Shown here in pieces: positions 4,159-26,592 of a stretch of DNA of 28,337 bases. The first letter of the stretch is position 1. The number at the start of each line of letters is the position of its first letter. A program made the translations under genes and the position numbers. The notes below the pieces were generated by a model. The model worked only from the letters and a program-made list of their open reading frames with translations, searched no databases and had not been told where the DNA came from. The stretch lies in the IMG/VR virus record IMGVR_UViG_3300048784_000153, positions 1 through 28,337 of that record; one strand, written 5' to 3'. This DNA comes from a virus.

Positions 4159-5307
4159 TTAACCAGTCGATTGCCTGGGCGAGTACCCGCCGGCCAGAGC
4201 TTCCGCGAGAGACGAAATGGCGGACCCGGTTGCGGTGTTTTGCTGCTGGTTGAACGTCAGAAGATCACCATAAAGCTGGCTCGCGATCTGGCTTTCGTTC
4301 ACCCCCTGAGATAGCAGCGTAGCGGCGATGGACGCGCCCTGCGCCGCCGTGTTCTCTTTGACGCTCGCCAAAGCCTGAGCTTCCATGGACGACCCCGACA
4401 AACCCATAGCAGCGTATTGAGAGCGGATTTCTGCTTCGGCGGCTTGGCTGGCCTCGTCAATGCTGGACTGAACGCCTGTGGGCAGCGTGCCGCTCTGTAG
4501 GTAGCTTTGAAGCTGATTGCCTTGAGCAGCGAATTGGTTGGCCTCGCTCTGCAATTGCGTCAAGCCGGGAATGTTTTGGCTACGGCTGGTGTCGTAGAGC
4601 AGGCCCCCGGCGGCTATTGCGGCGGGGAGCGCATTGGCCTTGGTGATGCCGAGATCGCCCAAAATGCCGCCGATACCGCCGGATGACGCGGGGGCGGGCG
4701 CTGAGGCGGCCCCTGTCGCGGCGGGCGCCCCTATCCCCAAGGCCGAACCAGCGCTGTTGACGGCGTTGCCCAAAATACTGCCGCCCGCACCGCCCAAGCC
4801 CAACCGGGAAGCCGCTGAATTAATGTCGTTACCTATTATGGTGCCTGTTCCCGCGGTTGCGGGTACGGCCGATCCGGCGGCGTTGGTTAGGCCGAGCGCA
4901 CCGCCGACATCTCCGATTCCTGTTTTTACATCCCCAACCAAACCGCTCACATCTTGACCCAGTTGCGAGTTTTCGACGCCAGTAACGGCGTCGCCTGCTA
5001 CGGTGCCACTGAGGCCTTTTCCTACCGCGCTGCCAACCGCGCCGCTGACGCCGCCTTTGCCGAGCAAACTCCCCCCGACTTCATCTAACCCGAACGTTTC
5101 CAGCCCGCCCAGGGCCGCTTGACCCAACGACTTTCCCTCAATCGCCTCGCCGGCAAAGTAGCCGAGACCAGCCCCGATTGGACCGCCTATAGCCGAGCCT
5201 GCCAAGGTCAACACGTCAGGAACCACGTTTTTAAGACTAAAAATTCGCCCGAGAGCCTTGCCGGGGTTGGTGAAAATACCGTGCGATCCGCCAAGCGCTA
5301 AGCCCAT
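4159..5307 (-). CDS. Gly/Ala-rich virion protein, probable ejection protein (382 aa)
   Basis: Extremely rich in Gly, Ala and Ser up to about residue 220, with repeated glycine-zipper-like segments (for example AGSAIGGPIGAGLGYFAGEA near residue 36). These are typical of membrane-inserting or pore-forming segments. The C-terminal 150 residues are helical, with many Gln and Ala (QSSIDEASQAAEAEIRSQYA, then GLSGSSMEAQALASVKE), a pattern I associate with internal or ejected virion proteins of short-tailed phages. The start ATG follows an AAAGG ribosome-binding site that overlaps the end of the preceding gene. A role in forming the channel for DNA entry is an inference. Confidence 0.75.
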   Translation of the reverse strand: MGLALGGSHGIFTNPGKALGRIFSLKNVVPDVLTLAGSAIGGPIGAGLGYFAGEAIEGKSLGQAALGGLETFGLDEVGGSLLGKGGVSGAVGSAVGKGLSGTVAGDAVTGVENSQLGQDVSGLVGDVKTGIGDVGGALGLTNAAGSAVPATAGTGTIIGNDINSAASRLGLGGAGGSILGNAVNSAGSALGIGAPAATGAASAPAPASSGGIGGILGDLGITKANALPAAIAAGGLLYDTSRSQNIPGLTQLQSEANQFAAQGNQLQSYLQSGTLPTGVQSSIDEASQAAEAEIRSQYAAMGLSGSSMEAQALASVKENTAAQGASIAATLLSQGVNESQIASQLYGDLLTFNQQQNTATGSAISSLAEALAGGYSPRQSTG

Positions 5308-6684: not shown

Positions 6685-7470
6685 TCACCCATAAATCCCA
6701 ATAGATGGCGAGACCGCCGAGAAGATGATGCCAATGAAGTCGTGAGAGGCGCCACTGGCGGTGGTCAGCCCGCCGGACAAGACCACGCCGGAACCGGCAC
6801 CTAAGGTGACGGTCTGTCCGCTGGTGTTGACAATCCTAAACCGAAATACAACCCCAGGAGAGGCGCCGGTCAGCGCGGCCACGATGTTGGCGGCTGTGTC
6901 GGTGGTATCGGTGATGCCGCCCACGGGAGAGCCGGCGCGCGTGATTATGACCTGGTTGCCGCCGCCCGTAAGCTGGGCCGCTGTCAGCGTCACGCCTGTC
7001 GCGCTGGTGATCGGAGTGACGCCGCCCCTCTCAGGCCACGTCCCGGTTGCGTTGGCCCCGCTCACATTGGCGGGCACATAGTTTAGCCCCTGGCTGGATT
7101 GTAGGTGAAACCCGCCGTTTCCGGAGTTCAGGGCGTTATCGTAAAGCAACACATAGAGGTTGCCCGCCACCATTTCCCCGCCCGTCAGCTCCACCGGGCC
7201 TGCCAAGCTGTCTTTGTAGATAAGCAGCGCGGGAAGGCTGCCAACTTGTGCCGTGGCTGGCCCTGTGTTGTTTGTGCCCCCACACACAAAAGGCATGTAG
7301 TTGGTATATTGAATGACGGATGGCGCATTGAACACGGGAGAAAGCGTCAAATTGTTCATGCCGGTCACGGAACACGGAATAGGGGTGAGCGCGCCCAGAG
7401 CCGCAAAATTGGCGTCCAAAAACGTCGATGTGGCCACGGTTAGGTTGGCGAAAAGATAAGGAAGTGCCAT
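6685..7470 (-). CDS. Beta-rich tail protein with a C-terminal module shared with the spike (261 aa)
   Basis: A Gly/Thr/Ser/Asn-rich, Cys-poor protein with almost no charged residues, typical of tail fibre or adhesin beta structure. Residues about 186-261 (beginning TDTTDTAANIVAALTGA, then FRFRIVNTSGQTVTLGAGSG) align by eye with the last 90 residues of the large spike encoded at 9628-11985, pointing to a common trimerisation or attachment module. The N-terminal half (SVTGMNNLTLSP, YKDSLAGPVELTGGEM) looks like a repeated fibre domain. An AGGGGA ribosome-binding site just before the start overlaps the end of the upstream gene. Probably part of the tail or host-recognition apparatus. Confidence 0.8.
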   Translation of the reverse strand: MALPYLFANLTVATSTFLDANFAALGALTPIPCSVTGMNNLTLSPVFNAPSVIQYTNYMPFVCGGTNNTGPATAQVGSLPALLIYKDSLAGPVELTGGEMVAGNLYVLLYDNALNSGNGGFHLQSSQGLNYVPANVSGANATGTWPERGGVTPITSATGVTLTAAQLTGGGNQVIITRAGSPVGGITDTTDTAANIVAALTGASPGVVFRFRIVNTSGQTVTLGAGSGVVLSGGLTTASGASHDFIGIIFSAVSPSIGIYG

Positions 7471-7472
7471 GC

Positions 7473-9518
7473 TTATCCCCTATACGCCTGCGGCTCTGCG
7501 CCGAGAACAATGAAAATGACCGCCATGTCGGAGGCTATGGTCGAGACGGTGAAGCCTAAAACAGCGCCGTTTTGCGCGATAGCCGTGGGCGGGAAAATCT
7601 GAATGCCGATGCCGGCGGTGTACCAGGTAAGAGCCTGCGCCGACTCGTTCACCCATGGCAGGGATGCCCCTGAAGCGTTCACCCATGTCAAAATACCCGC
7701 CTCAATGTTGAGCGCCGCTTGGTAGGAGCTAATTTCGCTGTCGATAGCGACCTTGAGAGGCACGCCGTCATTGGCGTAGTAGTAGGCCATGCCCCAAAGC
7801 CGCTCGGTCGTCTTAATCGCCAGAATGCTATCCGGCTGACCGAAAAACTTGGATTGCAGAGTTTTTGTGAACGAAGTGGATGGCTTTTGAAAAAGCGGAT
7901 AAACGCTCGTGCCGTCAGTTCCGTAGGCCGTCAGCACAGAGTTTATTTCTTGGCTTTGGATGAACGAAAACTGCACACTTTGATTTGAGGTGAACCATAC
8001 TTTGCCGTTCCACAAGACCAGCTTGTTGGTTTGCTGGCCGGTCACTTGGTCAATGACGGGCAAAAGAAGAATATAGACGCGCTGGCCAAAAATTATCGCT
8101 TTGGCGGAGCTGGGCGCCAAGCCGCCAAAATTTGGCAATGTATTGTAAAAGCCGTCTAGGGCCTCGCTTATTTTTGTAACCGCGCCGCCGTAGCTGATAT
8201 GCACGCCAAAAGCATTCGCAAAAACGATGTTTCGAGAAAATACTTGGACGCTTGGAGCGTAGGGCGAGCCAATTTCGGGATCTGCGTTTTGATTGGTGAA
8301 AGTGGTAATGGCCGGCTCCCCCGACGTGGTGATGCCGCTGATGTAGTTTACTGACGAATCGTTGATAAAGTATAGGAAGCCATTGGTTTGCCGCGGCTGG
8401 ATGAATGACGCGCGCAAAAATGAATCGGTGCTTTGAAACGTTCCGCCGCCTCCTGGCGCACTAAAATTGGTGAGGCTTCCCGGCCCAGAAAATGTGCAAT
8501 TGGGGCCGTTCACGATCCATACTCGGCCCTGATAGGTCTCCGCCGCCGTCCCACCTAATCCGGTGGGCATCACGCCGACATAGGCTTGGATTACAGGGTT
8601 ATCCACGTCGAAAATGAACACTGCGGGCGAGGTGACAAAACCGGAGCCGCCGTTTGTGATGCTGATGCTGGAAACCGATCCGCCAGAGACCACAACCGAA
8701 CCAGTCGCACCCAATCCGCCGCCGCCCAGAAATTGAACGCTGGCTGTGCTGGCGTTATAGAGCGCGCCTCGGTTGATAAGGCTGACGCTGGCAATTGACC
8801 CGCCTGATATGACAGCGCTTCCGGTGGCGGTGATCGGCCCGGCCGGATTGCCTCCCGAAAACGCCAAAACGGCATAATCATTCACCCCCCATCCCGACCC
8901 TGGGTTTGTGATGGACAGCGTTTCAACCGATCCGTCTTGAAGTGACACAGAGAAAGACGCGCCGGAGCCGGCCCCTCCTACCGCCGTAATGGTGGGGTTC
9001 GAGGTGTAGTTGCTGCCATCGCTTTGGATCGTGATGCTTGGGCTGAGCGAGCCGGATTGAAAGAAATTTGTGCCGTCCCACAAAAAATACCCGTTGGGCT
9101 GTTTGGCGACAATGATGATGTATGACGATCCCCACTGGCTAACCCCGCAATTAACCGGGGTGGGGCTTTGGATAGTGCCGGCGGGCGCCATCTGTGTGGC
9201 AACCTTGGTGAGCGTGTTCACCTGAATCACGCTGCCGTCGGTCAAGAACATGATCATGACGGGGTTGGTTGATATGTTACCGAAATTAAAAAACGCCACC
9301 TTGCCTGCTGTGGCGGATGTGTAAATCGGTGCGCCCACGTCTGGCAGCGTGCGCGCATAGTTGGGTCCAACCGGCATGAACCCATCCATGATGGTGCATT
9401 GCTTGTCCTGAATCGCGGGGCGAGGCGAAAGGGTGTTGATACCCTCAAAGCCCTCAAAAACCACCGGAGTCATGGTGGGCGGTATCAGCCCTGATTGTTT
9501 TTCCTGTCTGCCGGACAT
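7473..9518 (-). CDS. Large tail structural protein with inserted beta repeats (681 aa)
   Basis: Overlaps the upstream 36-aa gene by one base (TAATG), which fixes the ATG at 9518. The first 150 residues (FEGFEGINTLSPRPAIQDKQ, then NPVMIMFLTDGSVIQVN) and the region after about residue 305 resemble large beta-rich short-tail proteins of the tail-tube or tail-hub type. Between them, about residues 160-304 hold three copies of a short beta unit built on the pattern G-S-G-(Y/F/W)-x-x-x-P-x-(V/A) followed by GSxxSxSxTN. The same unit occurs in the 309-aa connector and the 373-aa protein. Assignment as a tail-tube/hub component is from size, composition and position between spike and connector genes. 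Confidence 0.75.
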   Translation of the reverse strand: MSGRQEKQSGLIPPTMTPVVFEGFEGINTLSPRPAIQDKQCTIMDGFMPVGPNYARTLPDVGAPIYTSATAGKVAFFNFGNISTNPVMIMFLTDGSVIQVNTLTKVATQMAPAGTIQSPTPVNCGVSQWGSSYIIIVAKQPNGYFLWDGTNFFQSGSLSPSITIQSDGSNYTSNPTITAVGGAGSGASFSVSLQDGSVETLSITNPGSGWGVNDYAVLAFSGGNPAGPITATGSAVISGGSIASVSLINRGALYNASTASVQFLGGGGLGATGSVVVSGGSVSSISITNGGSGFVTSPAVFIFDVDNPVIQAYVGVMPTGLGGTAAETYQGRVWIVNGPNCTFSGPGSLTNFSAPGGGGTFQSTDSFLRASFIQPRQTNGFLYFINDSSVNYISGITTSGEPAITTFTNQNADPEIGSPYAPSVQVFSRNIVFANAFGVHISYGGAVTKISEALDGFYNTLPNFGGLAPSSAKAIIFGQRVYILLLPVIDQVTGQQTNKLVLWNGKVWFTSNQSVQFSFIQSQEINSVLTAYGTDGTSVYPLFQKPSTSFTKTLQSKFFGQPDSILAIKTTERLWGMAYYYANDGVPLKVAIDSEISSYQAALNIEAGILTWVNASGASLPWVNESAQALTWYTAGIGIQIFPPTAIAQNGAVLGFTVSTIASDMAVIFIVLGAEPQAYRG

Positions 9519-16692: not shown

Positions 16693-16856
16693 TTGTTGGC
16701 CGATGGAACGTGCGTGATGGTCATGGCGTCAGACTTGCTGTTCGTCGGCAGGATGGATTTGCGCCCACCGATCTCCTGCGTCTCCATATCGACCCGGATA
16801 ATCATGGGGTCCGACTTCGGAACGCTGGTGGTGGTGTTTTTGAAAATATCAACCAT
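16689..16856 (-). CDS. 55-aa phage protein upstream of the scaffold gene
   Basis: A clear small gene: ATG at 16856 behind AAGGAA at good spacing, and TGA overlapping the scaffold ATG (ATGA). The peptide starts MVDIFKNTTTSVPKSDPMII and ends with SKSDAMTITHVPSANK; it is hydrophilic, with no membrane segment. Unknown family. Its place between the Pro/Gln-rich protein and the scaffold suggests a head-assembly function, but nothing in the sequence proves that. Confidence 0.8.
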   Translation of the reverse strand: MVDIFKNTTTSVPKSDPMIIRVDMETQEIGGRKSILPTNSKSDAMTITHVPSANK

Positions 16857-16867
16857 GACAAATTTCC

Positions 16868-17329
16868 TTATGCGGCCTGCTGTTGGGCGGACGGGTCATC
16901 GCTCTGCGGCGGAGGGGGCGGGACAGCGCCGACATTGGGCGGCTGTTGCATGGCTTTTTGCTGCATGGCCGCCATCAAGGGAGCCATTTGCTGGCGCTTG
17001 AGCATCACGGACTGCATGGCGTTGTTTTCGGCGACGGGCGAAACGGAACCGGGTTGCAGGTGTTTGGCCATGATGCCGATGCACTTGACCAAATCCTGTC
17101 CCGGTTCCGATTGCGAACCCAGCAAGGGTAACGTCTCTTCCGCCAAGCGCAGGATCAGAGAGAGCCTGGCCATGCCAGCCGCTTGCATTCCTTGATTCTG
17201 GGTTGGGCCAGTGGCAGGGGAGGAACCGAACGGCGGCTGACCCGGCTGTGGCTGGCCCGCACCCATACCCGGAGCGCCGCCTTGCGGTGGCTGGCCGGGC
17301 ATTTGAGGTGGGGTGATGCTGGCTGACAT
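16868..17329 (-). CDS. Pro/Gln/Gly-rich hypothetical head-region protein (153 aa)
   Basis: The N-terminal 45 residues are Pro, Gly and Gln-rich (PPQMPGQPPQGGAPGMGAGQ). The middle is an amphipathic helical domain (MARLSLILRLAEETLPLLGS, about residues 53-72, then DLVKCIGIMAKHLQPGS), and the C-terminus is again Met/Gln/Pro-rich. Proteins with this arrangement are often found between portal and capsid genes, but I cannot name the family. It is separated from the 55-aa gene by 11 bases. Possibly a head-assembly cofactor. Confidence 0.7.
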   Translation of the reverse strand: MSASITPPQMPGQPPQGGAPGMGAGQPQPGQPPFGSSPATGPTQNQGMQAAGMARLSLILRLAEETLPLLGSQSEPGQDLVKCIGIMAKHLQPGSVSPVAENNAMQSVMLKRQQMAPLMAAMQQKAMQQPPNVGAVPPPPPQSDDPSAQQQAA

Positions 17330-17347
17330 GGACGGCGGAAAAGCCGG

Positions 17348-17434
17348 TTACTTGCGGTGGGTCTTGCGGCCCCTGCGGGCGGCTTTCTCGATGCGGATCA
17401 TGGTGATGACCTTTCTCTTTGGGTTGCAACACAT
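17348..17434 (-). CDS. 28-aa basic peptide
   Basis: A short frame starts at ATG 17434 with a good GAGGA site eight bases upstream and ends TAA at 17348. The peptide begins MCCNPKRKVITMIRIEKAAR and ends RGRKTHRK: two adjacent cysteines and a very basic C-terminus, suggestive of nucleic-acid or capsid-surface binding. In-frame ATGs at 17449 and 17401 are alternatives. It is the first minus-strand gene after the opposing cassette. Its ribosome-binding site and position support it, but shortness leaves real doubt. Confidence 0.5.
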   Translation of the reverse strand: MCCNPKRKVITMIRIEKAARRGRKTHRK

Positions 17435-17573
17435 CCAAGCGTTCCTCATTCACGCCGCCGCTTGATGCCGAAGCACCCAAAAGGACAAGCGCCGCTCAGA
17501 CGCGAAGGTTGTAGGAATTTTATTTTTTGTTTTGCAATATGGTGATGTGTGGTAATGGAACTATGCCAGCATT

Positions 17574-17588
17574 GGGAGCACTCTAATT
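17574..17588 (+). promoter_or_regulatory. Ribosome-binding site with apparent ATT start
   Basis: GGGAG at 17574-17578 lies exactly seven bases before an ATT codon at 17586-17588, the start of the HTH frame. No ATG, GTG or TTG exists in frame between the upstream stop and the beginning of the HTH domain. ATT is a known rare start codon; a sequencing error is the main alternative. Confidence 0.5.
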
Positions 17589-17783
17589 TCCGCGTTTGAC
17601 GAAGATGACCGCCTAACTCCTAAGCAGGTCGCTCAACTTTTGGGCAAGTCTCGGGAGTGGCTTTATCTGCGGAGGCTGCGGCGTGATCCCAAAGGCCCGC
17701 CCTATTACAAAATTGGAAACCGGGTTTTTTACTTACGTTCCGAGCTGGCGGTTTGGATAGAAACGTGCCGCGTGGCGGCTTGA
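17586..17783 (+). CDS. Excisionase/AlpA-like HTH DNA-binding protein, ATT start (65 aa)
   Basis: Residues following the start read SAFDEDDRLTPKQVAQLLGK, then SREWLYLRRLRRDPKGP, then PYYKIGNRVFYLRSELAVWI. This is the MerR/excisionase-type winged helix (HTH_17): LTP..VA..L..S, xx, YKIGNRV.Y....L..WI. It probably binds DNA as a small regulator or excision factor. The only start giving a complete domain is ATT at 17586, with GGGAG seven bases upstream; an ATG at 17563 is in another frame and stops after seven codons. It is the first gene of a plus-strand cassette opposing the late operon. Downstream, GAGGAGG belongs to the next gene. Confidence 0.72.
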   Translation: MSAFDEDDRLTPKQVAQLLGKSREWLYLRRLRRDPKGPPYYKIGNRVFYLRSELAVWIETCRVAA

Positions 17784-17792
17784 GGAGGTTTT

Positions 17793-18119
17793 ATGTTTCT
17801 TTTAACGGTGGTTTTTGGCGAGAACGATACTCTGTGGCAAGCGTGCTTCGACAATGAAAAAAGCATGTTGGATGCGGCTTTTGAGGCGGGGATTCTCAAA
17901 CAGTGTTTTACAGACGATTACGGCACCGAGATTTTTTTATCAAAGCGGGCGACAGCCTTTCAGGTGCGGGATACGTCAAAAGCCCAACTGGCCGAAATTG
18001 AGATGATGCTGCACAACGCGCGAACGCAAAACAAAGCGCAGCGCGCGGCGGCCACTGACCCGACCTTAAGCGTGCCTCAGTTGGCGGTGCCCACCGGCGG
18101 GATGAACTTTCGGCAGTGA
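17793..18119 (+). CDS. Hypothetical protein in plus-strand cassette (108 aa)
   Basis: Starts at ATG 17793 after a near-perfect GAGGAGG site formed at the end of the HTH gene. The protein is MFLLTVVFGENDTLWQACFD, then a helical middle (NEKSMLDAAFEAGILKQCF) and a Gln/Ala/Asn-rich C-terminal tail. No membrane or catalytic motif. It overlaps the next gene as GTGA, so the three genes are one operon. Family not recognised; the cassette context suggests a host-interaction or regulatory accessory. Confidence 0.75.
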   Translation: MFLLTVVFGENDTLWQACFDNEKSMLDAAFEAGILKQCFTDDYGTEIFLSKRATAFQVRDTSKAQLAEIEMMLHNARTQNKAQRAAATDPTLSVPQLAVPTGGMNFRQ

Positions 18120-18460
18120 GCGCGGCGCGCGTTCGCGTTCGCAGATACAAACCCAAAGGTTCTGACCTTTGGGTGGTCTGCATTCACGAAAGCGACATGA
18201 ATAGCAAGAGAGCCGAGGTGCTGACGCTGTGCCGGCAGGTTATTTTACGATTTGACGATTCGCCTATTGCCGGCTTCGCCCTCGTCGTGTGGGACGAGGA
18301 ATCGTTTTTCGCAGGCGATAGCAAAAATTACGACGGCAAAATACCCAGGGCGCTGATCCCAGACTTTGTGCGAAATTGCCTGCTTGCCGAAAACATTGAG
18401 GATTGGACCATTGCAAGGGTCCGCAGAATGATGGGCTGGTCGCCGCCCGACGCCAGCTAG
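18116..18460 (+). CDS. Hypothetical protein in plus-strand cassette (114 aa)
   Basis: GTG start at 18116 overlaps the upstream TGA (GTGA). Basic at the N-terminus (RVRVRRYKPKGSDLWVVCIH), then a compact alpha/beta region (VLTLCRQVILRFDDSPIAGF; ALVVWDEESFFAGDSKNYDG), ending MMGWSPPDAS. No family recognised. Its TAG and the portal gene's TAG on the other strand share the palindrome CTAG (18457-18460), so the two genes converge with no intergenic space or terminator. Confidence 0.75.
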   Translation: MSAARVRVRRYKPKGSDLWVVCIHESDMNSKRAEVLTLCRQVILRFDDSPIAGFALVVWDEESFFAGDSKNYDGKIPRALIPDFVRNCLLAENIEDWTIARVRRMMGWSPPDAS

Positions 18461-20250
18461 CGCTTGTCGGCCTTCAAATACTGCACCAAAGCAGCCGGGT
18501 CGGCTTTGAGCGTTTCCATAATTTTTTGCCGCTCTTCGGCTTCCTGGGTTTGCTTTATTTTCCACTTACGGATCGCGTCGTCTTTGTTTGGAAAATCAAG
18601 GTTTTCCAGCACGTATTCGCCATCAACCAACCCCTCCTTGGCCGCCGCGCCAATCAGGTCTTTGTGGTCGTCGGAGAAGATGGGCGATGACGAATGGCCG
18701 TCCACTACAACACGGCGGTCCTCCGGCAGGTCGGAAAGCAAAAAGGATGTCTCGGCCATTTTGTCCGGGTCCGTCCAATAGTTGCGGCCATCCTTTAATT
18801 CGAGAAGCGCTAATCTCAAATCCGCGGCTTCCGCGCATTGCCTCTCGACCGTCAAACTGCGGTCTTTGATGCGTGGAGAGGCAGTTTTCATGAGGGTGTT
18901 CGCATGGTTGCCGGCGCGAACCCCAGCCTCACCCTGGCCCGACAAAATGTTGTCGAAGCCGCCCAGCATGTCGATGACCTTCATGATGAACTGAAGCATC
19001 TGCAGGGATTCGGGGGGCAGTTTGGGGGTGAGGTCATTGACTGCGCCGTTGGGGCCGAGATTGATGTACCCTGCCGCCCGGAAGGCATCATACACTTCAT
19101 CCGTGACGCCATCCGCCCCGCTAAACGCCATGATCTTGTCAATTTGAAGTCCAAAAAGCCTTTTGATGTCGTCGGCCCAAGTTGAAAGAAGCCCTTGCGG
19201 CTCCATGAGATCAACCACTTCTGGCCGACCCCATATATAGCCGGCCATCTTGTTGGGTTGAATCAGGGTATAGGGATGAAGCCCGGTGAAAAGCTGACCA
19301 GGTGCTAGAAGGTTGGTTCGTCTGTAGATCGGCGCGATCAAAATATCCGGCTCGATGATTTGGATCGTCACATAGTCGCGGTCGTCCCATAGCCATAGTT
19401 CGTGCATTTTAATGAGATCAACCGCGATGGAAGGGCCTGTCATCGCATAATTGGCGTCGTTGTTCAGTTGCACCACGCCGCCTGGGGTGGGGCGCGACAG
19501 TCCGGTATTGCTGGTGTTGAGCGTGGAGGTGGAAAGAACCTGATGAAAAAAGCTTTGAAACTCATCGGCAACTTGGCCGCGGGTGGCATGGGATTTGATC
19601 CGCGAAAACAATTCGCTGGCGTTGGGAAGGTGCGAGATACGGCGCCACACCTCGGGCAAAGTGAGGTTGATGGTCTCCACCATGGCGGGCTGGCGGCTCA
19701 GTTCTCCTATGGATTCGTTATAGACGCCAAACTGCCACGGCATGACCAGTGAATGGTGGATGACAGGCAACCGATCCGCGCCCTCTTGCTGCGGCCATTG
19801 CTTGAAGATGCAAGCGCCGTACTTGAGCGCCTCAAAAACTCCCATACCAAAACTCACGTCGGCGGAAAGGTTTTCAAAATCGCGCTGCAAACGCCTGGCA
19901 ACCACCTTTGCCCTTTCCAAAATTTGCAGCGGGTAGTCGTTTTCAAAGTCGATGGCGAATTTGAGGCCGAGGGCACTGAAAAGATATGCCGCGAGGCGAT
20001 CATGATGGACATAAAGCATGTTGATGAGGCTGCGCGTGCCGTCCTGGCGCCCGGTCTCGATGATGGCGTTTAGCTGACGGCAATAGGCGGCGCGCGCGGC
20101 CGATGAGGCCCGGCATGCCTCTATGATCTCATTGGCTTTTTTGACCAAAAGATTGGGGTCAGACGGCAAAGAAAAAGCGGTTGCCGGCCGGACCTCCACC
20201 ACATTTGAAGTTTCGTCCGCGTCTTTACTCGTCTGCGCCTTGCGTGCCAT
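18457..20250 (-). CDS. Portal protein (597 aa)
   Basis: The portal is a dodecameric ring at one capsid vertex through which DNA is packaged and released. Identification: 597 aa, directly downstream of terminase, with a helical N-terminal half, a characteristic region around residues 330-360 (NLLAPGQLFTGLHPYTLIQP; KMAGYIWGRPEVVDLMEPQG), and the MKVIDMLGGFDNILSGQGEA and VRAGNHANTLMKTASPRIKD segments that recur in short-tailed phage portals. The C-terminal 80 residues are a charged coiled coil (DAIRKWKIKQTQEAEERQKI). The start lies behind AAGGT overlapping the previous stop. The function itself is confident; the subfamily is not. Confidence 0.87.
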   Translation of the reverse strand: MARKAQTSKDADETSNVVEVRPATAFSLPSDPNLLVKKANEIIEACRASSAARAAYCRQLNAIIETGRQDGTRSLINMLYVHHDRLAAYLFSALGLKFAIDFENDYPLQILERAKVVARRLQRDFENLSADVSFGMGVFEALKYGACIFKQWPQQEGADRLPVIHHSLVMPWQFGVYNESIGELSRQPAMVETINLTLPEVWRRISHLPNASELFSRIKSHATRGQVADEFQSFFHQVLSTSTLNTSNTGLSRPTPGGVVQLNNDANYAMTGPSIAVDLIKMHELWLWDDRDYVTIQIIEPDILIAPIYRRTNLLAPGQLFTGLHPYTLIQPNKMAGYIWGRPEVVDLMEPQGLLSTWADDIKRLFGLQIDKIMAFSGADGVTDEVYDAFRAAGYINLGPNGAVNDLTPKLPPESLQMLQFIMKVIDMLGGFDNILSGQGEAGVRAGNHANTLMKTASPRIKDRSLTVERQCAEAADLRLALLELKDGRNYWTDPDKMAETSFLLSDLPEDRRVVVDGHSSSPIFSDDHKDLIGAAAKEGLVDGEYVLENLDFPNKDDAIRKWKIKQTQEAEERQKIMETLKADPAALVQYLKADKR

Positions 20251-22752: not shown

Positions 22753-23016
22753 TTACCTTCTCCCGAACCCGCCGCGCCCTTGAGCCGCTTCTTCAGCTGC
22801 AATTTCAGATAGGCGCACGTCGATCATGCCTTTCAGACTTGCCCAGAAAAGCGATTCGCTGGCGTCGGGAGATATAATGAGGTTTTCGATTTTTTTCCCG
22901 CCAGGCGAGACTACCACAAAGGCGCCGGCAAACACTTCGGCATTGCGCTCAATCCGCTCCCGCATATCCTCAAAAGGTTGCCAGACAGGGGGCGGTGGGG
23001 GCGGTGTTTCAGACAT
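22753..23016 (-). CDS. Hypothetical protein (87 aa)
   Basis: Begins MSETPPPPPPVWQPFEDMRE, then a helix-strand pattern (ERNAEVFAGAFVVVSPGGKK; IENLIISPDASESLFWASLK) and a C-terminal Gly/Arg tail. Starts eight bases inside the KTSC gene and ends one base before the terminase ATG, so it is part of the same unit. Small terminase subunits often sit here, but no HTH is visible, so I do not call it one. Confidence 0.72.
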   Translation of the reverse strand: MSETPPPPPPVWQPFEDMRERIERNAEVFAGAFVVVSPGGKKIENLIISPDASESLFWASLKGMIDVRLSEIAAEEAAQGRGGFGRR

Positions 23017-23224
23017 ATTGATGCCCGTAGTGGCCTTTAATGTTGGCGTGAACGTATTGGCCTATGGAGTGCGCGGTTTGCGCCTGCTGCGCCACTTCCG
23101 GCGGCACGCCGTCATACTTCGATGTCTTGCCAGATTTCCACTGGATATAAAGGGCGGCCTCGCCAGCGTCATATCCCACCGCCTCCACATTGGAAGAGAA
23201 CACCTGTTTCATTTCAACTGGCAT
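23009..23224 (-). CDS. KTSC-domain protein (71 aa)
   Basis: The whole protein fits the small KTSC fold: VFSSNVEAVGYDAGEAALYI followed by QWKSGKTSKYDGVPPEVAQQ and AHSIGQYVHANIKGHYGHQ. The Y-D / Y-x-G-V-P / A-x-S-x-G-x-Y / IK--Y positions typical of this domain are present. KTSC proteins appear in phages and bacteria and are thought to bind nucleic acid or lysyl-tRNA-synthetase-like partners; the function in phage is unclear. The ATG at 23224 has a good GGGGAG site; another ATG four codons in is less likely. Confidence 0.8.
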   Translation of the reverse strand: MPVEMKQVFSSNVEAVGYDAGEAALYIQWKSGKTSKYDGVPPEVAQQAQTAHSIGQYVHANIKGHYGHQYV

Positions 23225-23561
23225 CTAACTCCCCTTCTATGACCTTCGGCACGAATGGATTTTCGTCACCGTCCTTAAGTCCGTGCTGCTTTTTGATGCC
23301 GTTGATGAGTCGGCGCAGATAGTCGTCTTGTTCGGCATCCAACCCGGCCAAATATCTTTCACCGGATGGCGAAATTACGTTATTGAATTTATCAAGGCGG
23401 GTCATGAGGCCCAGATGCACAAGCCGATCTATGGCTTTTTCGTGCGCCGCGATGGCCGCGATGCAGCCGCCTTCGCCAGCCATCATCAGGAGCCGCCGCT
23501 CGTGGTCAGACAACACGATGCGCGGCTCAACTTCCGCGCCTGACTGGTCAATCGTTGCCAT
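23214..23561 (-). CDS. Possible small winged-helix protein (115 aa)
   Basis: ATG at 23561 with GAGGGGG upstream, starting within the end of the glycosyltransferase gene. The middle has a wHTH-like arrangement: LSDHERRLLMMAGEGGCIAA, then EKAIDRLVHLGLMTRLDKFN, then a wing (NVISPSGERYL). The C-terminal third is acidic (LDAEQDDYLRRLINGIKKQH). The fit to a winged helix is only moderate. A regulatory protein or terminase small subunit are both possible from position. Confidence 0.65.
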   Translation of the reverse strand: MATIDQSGAEVEPRIVLSDHERRLLMMAGEGGCIAAIAAHEKAIDRLVHLGLMTRLDKFNNVISPSGERYLAGLDAEQDDYLRRLINGIKKQHGLKDGDENPFVPKVIEGELDAS

Positions 23562-24957
23562 TCAACCGCCCCCTCAGTGCACGGCAGATTCGGTCAAACA
23601 CTGGCTGCCAGGATTCGTGCTGTCCCTGCCGGAAAAGCTTGTGTTTGGGATACCAGATTGATGAGCTTCCGGTATGACCGCATCTATAGTCCCGGCCATA
23701 AAATGAGGCGGGTATCCAGCATTCCTTGCCGAACGCGCCCGCCAAATGTCCCACAAAACTTTCAATGGTAATGACAAGATCAAGCTCCCGGATAATGGCG
23801 GCCGTATCGGTGGCGTCCCTTATCATGGGCGACAAATCTTTCACCAGCGCCGCCGCGCCAAAGCGATGCACGTCAGCCGCATGCTCACCCACCTGCAAAG
23901 AATAAAGCTGAATGCCAGGAACTCGGTACAATTCCAGGAATTGCTCAAGTGCCAAGGAACGCCAGCGGTCTATGTCATTCTGCTTCGATCCGGCCCATGC
24001 GATGCCGATGGCAAACCTTCCCAACACTTTCCAGTGCGCCGGTAAGCGGTAATCCCTTACCACAACGCCGGGGGCGTTTATGAACTCCGCGTCGGTCAGC
24101 CCCAGCGCAACGGGCAGAGAGACAATCGGGCACCAGAAATCCGCGGCGGGAAAGGCGTGAGGTAGCGGTGCTACCTCGACATTCATGGGCAGCGCGTCTT
24201 GCGCCATGCGTGCTATTTCGGGCTGGATTCCCAAAACGATCCGCCGGCATCGCTCGGCAGCTTGGGCGACAAACCGGAGATAGGACAGCGAATCCCCGAT
24301 GCCCTGGTCGCCCACGATATAAACCGTTTGGCCTGGTTCGCCCTTCCAGCGCGTGTAGGGATATTTCAGAAAATTCTGGTCTTTGTAGGCAAAGCGGCAC
24401 TCAAAATGCCGAAGGCCCTCTATAAACTGGCGGTCGAAAAGCAGGGCAAAAGCCAACGCCAGCTCCACAACTGGCGTCTGGTCCAAGGCAAAAGCCTTTT
24501 TGCAGAGTCGGATGCACTCAGCCTGATTGCCGCCCAGGCTTTCGATCATGGACAGGTTGATGAGCGCGTAGGATGAATTTGGGTCTTGTTCGAGCGCGCG
24601 GCGGGTAAATTCTTCCGCCTCCGCCAGCCTGCCCATGTGATATAGCCGATGCCCGATGTTGATGAGCGCCTTGAGCGTCATGGCGGCATCGCGGTCTCCA
24701 CTCTCGCCCGGACCTGTGGGCATTTCCAGAACGCGGCGAAAACACGCCACCGCGGCCGGGCGGAGGTCAAGATCGGAGTTTGAGTTGCCGTGAGCATACC
24801 AAGCCCCGGCAAAGCTCTGGTCGATCTCGCACGCGCTCAAAAGCAGCTTATACGCAAGCTGGTGGTCGCCGCCGGCGCCTTGGACGCCTTGGTTGTGGTA
24901 TTCAGCCGCCTGTTGCCGTTCAAGCGACATGGCTGGGGGTTTTTTAGATGCGCTCAC
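23548..24957 (-). CDS. TPR-glycosyltransferase (GT9/GT41-like) (469 aa)
   Basis: Starts with GTG at 24957, overlapping the previous stop as GTGA. Residues about 32-190 are tetratricopeptide repeats (AAVACFRRVLEMP; LAEAEEFTRRALEQDPNSSY; AECIRLCKKAFALDQ). Residues about 205-460 are a glycosyltransferase with the pattern of bacterial TPR-GT/O-GlcNAc-transferase-like enzymes: VGDQGIGDSLSYLRF (215-229), GIAWAGSKQNDIDRWRS (318-334), LYSLQVGEH (351-359), DTAAIIRELDLVITIES (384-400), GHLAGAFGKECW (403-414). It probably transfers a sugar from a nucleotide donor to a protein or glycan. In a phage operon it could modify host surface sugars or virion proteins. No membrane segment was seen. Confidence 0.87.
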   Translation of the reverse strand: MSASKKPPAMSLERQQAAEYHNQGVQGAGGDHQLAYKLLLSACEIDQSFAGAWYAHGNSNSDLDLRPAAVACFRRVLEMPTGPGESGDRDAAMTLKALINIGHRLYHMGRLAEAEEFTRRALEQDPNSSYALINLSMIESLGGNQAECIRLCKKAFALDQTPVVELALAFALLFDRQFIEGLRHFECRFAYKDQNFLKYPYTRWKGEPGQTVYIVGDQGIGDSLSYLRFVAQAAERCRRIVLGIQPEIARMAQDALPMNVEVAPLPHAFPAADFWCPIVSLPVALGLTDAEFINAPGVVVRDYRLPAHWKVLGRFAIGIAWAGSKQNDIDRWRSLALEQFLELYRVPGIQLYSLQVGEHAADVHRFGAAALVKDLSPMIRDATDTAAIIRELDLVITIESFVGHLAGAFGKECWIPASFYGRDYRCGHTGSSSIWYPKHKLFRQGQHESWQPVFDRICRALRGRLNGND

Positions 24958-25169: not shown

Positions 25170-25699
25170 AGGCCAGGAAACCTCTGCTTGGGCGGCGGCC
25201 AAGCGCCGGGGTAGGCGGCGAGCGGCGCGGGCTTCGCCGCTTCTTCCGCCTGATGCGCGAGCCATGAGGTCATGAAGCATTCCGAAAAATCCTCATTTAC
25301 CGGCGGCATCGGCAGGTCTTCGTGGTTTGGTAAAGCTGGGTTTTGCGGTGCTCCATCGTCAAGTTTTCCATGCCCAAACAATAAAACCTCGAAACAGTGC
25401 CGCTTCCCTTCGTGAGTTACGATCCCGGAAACTTTCCCTGCATAGTAGGGAAGAGGGAAAATTTCGATGTGCGCGGTGGTTTCGTTCACAAAAAAATAGC
25501 GCGGAACCCCTAGAAACCCCCTTTGGGTATCCTGATAAATTTTTATCAACTCAATAAACTCCGCCCGCGACACCTCCAGCAAAACAAACTCGTTGTGTTG
25601 TCCGCAGGGTGTCCAAAATACTTCGTTGGGGGGTTTCGTTCCGGGCAACATCTGGCTCAACTCCTGACCCACCATCTCACTCTCCATCATGAAAATCAT
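25166..25699 (-). CDS. Hypothetical protein (177 aa)
   Basis: The ATG at 25699 overlaps the recombinase stop as ATGA. The sequence has an early acidic start (MIFMMESEMVGQELSQMLPG), then NEFVLLEVSRAEFIELIKIY, GVPRYFFVNETTAHIEIFPL and a strand-rich part (KVSGIVTHEGKRHCFEVLLF), ending in a Pro-rich tail. No family recognised. The alternation of strands and helices suggests a small folded domain. Part of the accessory block between recombinase and glycosyltransferase. Confidence 0.72.
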   Translation of the reverse strand: MIFMMESEMVGQELSQMLPGTKPPNEVFWTPCGQHNEFVLLEVSRAEFIELIKIYQDTQRGFLGVPRYFFVNETTAHIEIFPLPYYAGKVSGIVTHEGKRHCFEVLLFGHGKLDDGAPQNPALPNHEDLPMPPVNEDFSECFMTSWLAHQAEEAAKPAPLAAYPGAWPPPKQRFPGL

Positions 25700-26436
25700 G
25701 CTGTTTTCCTTTGTGCCGCCGCCATTTCGGCGTCAAACGCTTTTTTCATCCGGTACAGCGTTGCGTAGCCCGTTTTAGTGACCCTGGCGATCTTTCCCAA
25801 CTTCTCGCCGGCCCGCATCATGTCCCTGATTTGCGCGTGTCTCTTGGGGTCAGACACGTCCAATCCCTTCGGCCCAGGGCGTTTGCCGGCGGCCTTGGCA
25901 AGCTTCAAACCCGCCATCACCCGTTCACGGATCATGCCGCGCTCAAACTCGGCAAACACGCCAAGCATCTGAAACATAGCCCGGCCCGCCGGGGTGGTGG
26001 TGTCAATATTTTGCTGGTGGATGTAGAGGCGCACGCCCGCCTTATCCAACTCGGCCAGCGTCACGATCAGGTTGTGCAGGCTCCGGCCCAGCCGGTCCAG
26101 CGCCCAAACCAGCAGGACATCGTACTTGTTGGCTTCGGCGGCGGTCATGGCCTTGTCCAACCCCGGCCGACGGTCGCGCCCCTTGGCGCCGGATATGCCA
26201 GCGTCCTCAATCTGCTCCACAACCTTCCAGCCGCGGCGCGTTGCCACCTCTCGCAGTTCTTGGCTTTGGTTCCGTGTGTCCTGGTGGGCCGTCGAGACGC
26301 GGCTGTAGATCACGGCGCGCAGGGCCGGCAAGGGGGCGTCGGGTTTTTCGACAAGCCGAACAGCGGGCGGTTTCGGCGCTAACGGCGGCGGCGACTCGAC
26401 CGCTTTCACTTCCGGTTCTGGAAGCTGCCACCTCAA
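25696..26436 (-). CDS. Serine recombinase, resolvase/invertase type (246 aa)
   Basis: Start TTG at 26436 overlaps the upstream peptide's stop as TTGA; a longer frame from a distant TTG runs through that peptide and is less likely. Residues 1-38 are Pro-rich. The catalytic domain follows: AVIYSRVSTAHQDTRNQSQE (about residues 41-60, nucleophile Ser48), AGISGAKGRDRRPGLDKAM, WALDRLGRSLHNLIV (about 111-125, catalytic Arg residues), FAEFERGMIRERVMAGL (about 161-177). A C-terminal HTH (about 200-232, RHAQIRDMMRAGEKLGKIAR) completes the small resolvase/invertase layout. It might resolve phage genome multimers, invert a segment or catalyse integration. No recombination site pair could be confirmed. 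Confidence 0.88.
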   Translation of the reverse strand: MRWQLPEPEVKAVESPPPLAPKPPAVRLVEKPDAPLPALRAVIYSRVSTAHQDTRNQSQELREVATRRGWKVVEQIEDAGISGAKGRDRRPGLDKAMTAAEANKYDVLLVWALDRLGRSLHNLIVTLAELDKAGVRLYIHQQNIDTTTPAGRAMFQMLGVFAEFERGMIRERVMAGLKLAKAAGKRPGPKGLDVSDPKRHAQIRDMMRAGEKLGKIARVTKTGYATLYRMKKAFDAEMAAAQRKTA

Positions 26437-26528
26437 TGCCGCGTCCCTCGCACGAAGACGGCAAACCCGCGCACCGCCCACAAAATCAGGCCAACAGAAA
26501 CCGCAATGGCTAAAATGTCTCCCAGCAC
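26433..26528 (-). CDS. 31-aa single-pass membrane peptide
   Basis: GTG at 26528 with GGGAG eight bases upstream; stop TGA overlaps the recombinase TTG start as TTGA. The peptide LGDILAIAVSVGLILW, then AVRGFAVFVRGTRH, has one clear hydrophobic helix (about residues 6-26) and a basic C-terminus. Coupling and a good ribosome-binding site make it likely to be real. Possible roles: holin-like, host membrane modifier, or inhibitory leader peptide for the recombinase. Its ribosome-binding site lies inside an inverted repeat. Confidence 0.6.
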   Translation of the reverse strand: MLGDILAIAVSVGLILWAVRGFAVFVRGTRH

Positions 26529-26537
26529 GGCGGCGGC

Positions 26538-26592
26538 TCCCTATTGTTGCGGCGGCAGTCGTAACCTCTCTCAATTAAAAATGCAATAGGGA
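26538..26592. repeat. Nine-base inverted repeat over the ribosome-binding site of the membrane peptide
   Basis: TCCCTATTG (26538-26546) and CAATAGGGA (26584-26592) are perfect reverse complements with 37 bases between. On the minus-strand RNA the downstream arm contains most of GGGAG, the ribosome-binding site of the 31-aa gene. Pairing would therefore hide it. Alternatively the repeat is a protein or recombinase binding site. Confidence 0.65.

Follow-up and report, generated by a model that had tools for sequence, protein, structure and literature searches.

An opposing-strand winged-HTH gene recurs between the portal and capsid genes of a phage lineage and may start at AUU in one member

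We suggest that three rightward genes, lying amid the leftward head genes of a phage, form a conserved divergent regulatory operon. Its first gene encodes a small winged HTH protein, which would regulate the junction between portal and capsid and whose dose would be kept low in this phage by an AUU start codon. We hold this reading with moderate confidence. It builds on the recurrence of the HTH gene at the same place in close relatives and on the position of the ATT codon in the alignment of their starts.

Results

Layout of the cassette

The DNA analysed here (the window) comes from IMG/VR, where it is a virus record 28,337 b long. The initial annotation described an opposing three-gene cassette headed by an HTH gene, and this is what we find: three plus-strand genes (17586-18460) lie between portal and capsid, while every other credible gene points leftward. 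The cassette had been placed from 17561; its coding part begins at 17586. The features are the following.

16868-17329, minus strand: late gene of 153 aa on the other flank of the cassette; junction marker, with homologs equally placed in relatives
17348-17401, minus strand: tiny Arg/Lys-rich ORF
17402-17585, no strand: divergent gap that separates the cassette from the capsid-side genes, the expected place of promoter and operator; architecture common to relatives
17574-17578, plus strand: GGGAG, likely Shine-Dalgarno sequence of the HTH gene, from the sequence and the spacing in relatives
17586-17783, plus strand: HTH_17 gene (excisionase/MerR-like winged HTH), 65 aa, start ATT, from PF12728, the starts of relatives and a second assembly (L165)
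17793-18119, plus strand: gene 2, conserved protein of predicted alpha/beta fold, 108 aa; homologs in relatives
18116-18460, plus strand: gene 3, orphan, 114 aa, GTG start; coding-like codon-position GC
18457-20250, minus strand: portal gene, convergent with the cassette; homologous to the annotated portals of MW202753 and MW202825

The spacing is that of a tight operon. The HTH stop is followed by GGAGG and the start of gene 2 at 17793, genes 2 and 3 overlap by 4 nt, and the gene 3 stop overlaps the portal stop codon (18457-18459). Portal and cassette stops overlap or abut in several members of the lineage. A terminator would not fit between stops so placed, which makes late read-through antisense RNA across the cassette plausible. 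The initial annotation had envisaged such RNA, and also that the cassette could be active only while the late genes are off. GC content and codon-position GC of the cassette are coding-like and indistinguishable from the remaining genome. No sigma-70 consensus was found in the cassette region or the divergent gap, and an Rfam search of 17200-18600 gave no match. Terminator-like sites numbered 6, against 2.6 (sd 1.8) in shuffles.

Gene 3 contains a perfect 10-bp inverted repeat with a 4-nt loop (18151-18174). Its half-site ACCCAAAGG occurs again, with one mismatch, at 17416, 17475 and 17687. These half-sites cluster near the cassette (5 of the 10 in the window), a pattern that was spotted post hoc. 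As an operator the half-site has no support from relatives, and the comparison across relatives found no operator or palindrome common to them.

Conservation across relatives

Single-protein scans found few relatives. A large IMG/VR set was reached after portal and terminase had been aligned with those of two Manatee Spring phages, and terminase also with that of Hydrogenobaculum phage 1. The close clade has about 40-58% identity in the portal and 52-78% in the capsid protein. Within it, an opposing-strand HTH_17 gene is present at the junction of the portal with the next head gene in 27 of 28 junction-spanning IMG/VR contigs, L114 being the only one without it; near-duplicates among the 28 (such as L102/L113/L125, L104/L105, L096/L097 and L092/L120) bring the independent cases nearer to 22. 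All 14 large records scanned have an HTH_17 match. L116 has a partial copy at its edge, and L166, a contig from a Patescibacteria MAG, carries a copy as well. In distant relatives, with about 30% identity in the portal, this HTH gene is absent. The initial annotation had pointed to related phages as the place to look for the cassette, and the recurrence there exceeds chance.

Gene 2 has homologs in 20 relatives, placed immediately after the HTH gene on its portal side; L086 has a C-terminal fragment. The order of HTH gene and gene 2 is conserved. For gene 3 no homologs beyond this phage were found among relatives or in database scans. Other genes occupy the tail slot elsewhere: a GT25 glycosyltransferase in L110, a TPR protein with a KTSC-like ORF in L127. 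In L007, L119 and L128 the HTH gene is alone. Sequence comparison thus shows the cassette to be a module of the lineage, constant at its head and variable in its tail, or cargo. The opposing ORFs annotated in MW202753 and MW202825 were considered as cassette equivalents and rejected, as they are antisense to tiny basic ORFs.

The AF2 model of gene 2 (pLDDT 80) predicts an alpha/beta fold. Its fold matches are all weak (Rv3208A, Z 5.8; phage p56 uracil-DNA-glycosylase inhibitor, Z 4.2), too weak to assign a function from, and were set aside.

In L127 the KTSC-like ORF and a TPR/glycosyltransferase-9-like gene stand in the opposing cassette (7273-8961). In the window KTSC and TPR genes lie near each other upstream of terminase (23009-24957). 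Judging from these positions, the KTSC/TPR module seems to be mobile.

The start codon of the HTH gene

The HTH frame is open from 17556, directly after a TAA (17553-17555), to the TGA at 17781-17783. In the window it has no ATG, GTG or TTG upstream of the domain. GGGAG (17574-17578) is followed by seven nucleotides (CACTCTA) and then by ATT (17586-17588), and several relatives, for example L085, L088 and L127, have a GGAG-like sequence with similar spacing. The 5' end of the HTH gene is complete in 27 relatives. An in-frame ATG precedes the domain in 26 of them, and GTG or TTG in the remaining one (L123). In the alignment the ATT of the window sits in the start column (ISAFDEDDRLTPKQ in the window, MAVFSTNGFLTPKQ in L128). 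Hence both observations of the initial annotation, an intact domain in a frame devoid of the usual starts and an ATT seven nucleotides behind GGGAG, hold on inspection of the frame, on the HTH_17 match and on the alignment with the start codons of relatives.

An indel or a wrong base had been named as a possible flaw. A contig in an Acetobacteraceae MAG (bog_899), L165, is 99.73% identical to the window over 14,971 b, although its sample may share the environment of the window or a nearby one, so that the two are incompletely independent. The 40 differences between them all fall outside 16852-19004, and the ATT is identical. A sequencing error at the HTH start is therefore unlikely, and no corrected base giving an in-frame ATG is seen in this second assembly.

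The differences between L165 and the window lie in short tracts. A small gene at 23214-23561 holds 22 of the 40 (11 synonymous and 11 non-synonymous), and local replacement is possible there.

A +1 frameshift from the overlapping ORF MELCQHWEHSNFRV (ATG at 17555) was also considered. It is unneeded, since relatives begin translation next to the domain. Upstream of the HTH gene lies a mini-ORF (17563-17586), whose TAA overlaps the ATT by one base; speculatively, this overlap could couple translation.

The ATT might instead be a recent start-loss mutation, with the HTH gene silent or barely expressed and genes 2 and 3 read from their own ribosome-binding sites. The prevalence of ATG in relatives speaks for this, as do the single substitution that separates ATT from ATG and the strong Shine-Dalgarno sequence of gene 2 itself. 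However, the HTH frame is intact and codes for a full-scoring domain, the Shine-Dalgarno sequence and its spacing are kept, and the ATT is common to two assemblies that differ at 40 positions elsewhere. We consider start loss unlikely, yet the most serious of the alternatives.

Family and fold of the HTH protein

The protein matches HTH_17 (PF12728) with E 4.3e-10 and 40.1 bits, against a curated cut-off of 27. Its AF2 model (pLDDT 82) is a winged HTH only, 65 aa long. The best fold match is the RdfS excisionase (PDB 8dgl; Z 8.6, rmsd 2.2, 59 residues, 30% identity), followed by the GIsul2 and Pukovnik Xis proteins, BldC (Z 6.8) and MerR types (Z about 5). Assignment to MAD1, a methylation-associated defence HTH, was rejected (NCBIfam NF047737, 15.5 bits against a cut-off of 80). 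An exact DNA pattern search of IMG/VR for further copies of the HTH gene of the window found none. Identity to the window's HTH protein in relatives is 14-41%, compared with 53-78% for the capsid protein; such divergence would fit a DNA specificity that changes from phage to phage.

The fold raises the possibility that the protein is a recombination directionality factor (excisionase) of a phage recombinase encoded away from it. Besides the three leading fold matches, recombinases themselves are at hand: of the 14 large records, 10 have a serine recombinase; a further 3 have a tyrosine-integrase match, and no record has both. It is possible that the two types are interchangeable across records G001-G020. 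The partner integrase of an excisionase is encoded in the same genome, usually adjacent. Only 3 of 21 records show a tyrosine-integrase match, which in one case falls short of the cut-off, and the role of an excisionase is weakened since most relatives have no such integrase. The record of the window, possibly an incomplete one, has none. The window's own recombinase (25696-26574, minus strand, about 8 kb from the HTH gene) is a serine recombinase of the small resolvase type (292 aa, PF00239 and weak HTH_7), and to our knowledge such enzymes need no directionality factor. The linkage of the HTH gene is with the head genes rather than with the recombinase. We thus regard an excisionase as rather improbable, and a regulator of the junction as the simpler reading. 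A ParA partition gene, as a sign of a phage-plasmid, was sought in relatives and none was found.

The initial annotation also allowed for a moron-type accessory. A moron would be a recent insertion with its own promoter. The opposing orientation, the variable downstream cargo and a gene 3 private to this phage fit such an origin; nevertheless the HTH gene stands at 27 of 28 close-relative junctions and the composition is like that of the genome, so that this proposal is disfavoured for the HTH gene and gene 2 and is very improbable for the cassette as a whole, while for gene 3 alone it is possible. Least probable of all is a minimal small-terminase-like protein that recognises DNA for packaging: the gene adjoins the portal and the fold matches DNA-binding domains of packaging proteins (7lw0, Z 6.6; 7lwr, Z 6.3; lambda gpNu1, Z 4.2), with Z values of 4.2-6.6 that are no higher than for other winged HTH proteins, but 65 aa leave no room for the oligomerisation and large-terminase-binding parts, the gene is transcribed against the late genes, and it is missing in distant relatives with the same terminase and portal.

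Tiny basic ORFs in the same interval

On the late strand of the portal-capsid interval, 91 of 94 related loci contain one or more ORFs 9-18 aa long, in which Arg and Lys make up at least 38% of the residues and which follow a Shine-Dalgarno-like sequence. Such ORFs occur at a density of 0.83 per kb in the interval and of 0.014 per kb elsewhere; the antisense strand of the interval has none. Capsid matches to the window stay below about 50% identity in 65 of these loci; that reading frames this short are nevertheless conserved points to their translation. Each phage has one or two; examples are MFTANKRKHRKGRK, MYKKMKRGRKTRR and MARKARKGRKARK, and those of L003 lie at about 4758-4799 and 4879-4919. 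They possibly encode a DNA-condensing or head-assembly micropeptide. This finding may outweigh the cassette in importance.

Just upstream of the tiny ORF, at about 17410-17465 on the late strand of the window, lies the motif GGCGG(C/T)G..AA(T/C)GAGGA, and a similar one is present in the divergent gaps of L006, L007, L008, L110, L123 and L127. It is a possible RNA leader; the window gave no Rfam match.

Discussion

We propose the following scheme for the divergent regulatory operon.

Step 1: The small winged HTH protein, of the excisionase/MerR/BldC fold, would be made first. Ribosomes would start at the AUU behind a good Shine-Dalgarno sequence. The level of the protein would be held low, since IF3 discriminates against AUU.

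Step 2: The protein would bind the divergent region that precedes the capsid-side genes. It would also bind the promoter of its own gene, which would thereby be autoregulated.

Step 3: This binding would set the timing or level of both opposed units, the late genes included. Gene 2 would act as a co-expressed partner, and gene 3 would be private cargo.

The relatives work with ATG; hence a weak start is no general requirement of the system. More tentatively, and with considerable doubt, we picture a lineage-wide divergent switch amid head genes, made up of a fast-evolving DNA-binder and a new gene 2 family. Antisense late transcription would control the output of the switch, as would, in this phage, an IF3-sensitive AUU.

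The cassette offers a defined place to seek gene control in a widespread, unstudied phage lineage. It also allows one to ask, in a natural case, whether AUU starts serve phages to keep the dose of a regulator low. Standard gene finders, limited to ATG, GTG and TTG, overlook genes with such starts. Our literature search on opposing HTH genes beside the portal and on phage AUU starts found nothing relevant in the collection of papers that it covered.

Like phage morons, the cassette is a transcription unit opposed to its late-gene neighbours. Unlike them, its HTH gene is conserved in the lineage and its composition is native. With RdfS and the HTH_17/excisionase family (PF12728, TIGR01764, phrog_66) the protein shares the similar size, the winged HTH over nearly its whole length and the sequence-family match; however, its gene is not beside an integrase but in a divergent operon amid head genes. 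In the divergent regulator/structural operons of temperate phages the gene of a DNA-binding protein is likewise transcribed away from the operon that it possibly controls. Here the cassette interrupts the head genes at the portal-capsid junction, and the repressor-operator role is a prediction.

The closest likeness in the start codon is to infC (ATT) and Streptomyces sigR (GTC), whose non-canonical starts are repressed by IF3 (PMC5472188). Unlike these, the gene of the window is a phage HTH gene whose relatives use ATG, and its dependence on IF3 is presumed. In all three cases a non-canonical codon, in the window a putative start, stands behind a ribosome-binding site where a canonical start would be expected, and sigR encodes a regulator of transcription, the role that we predict for the HTH protein of the window.
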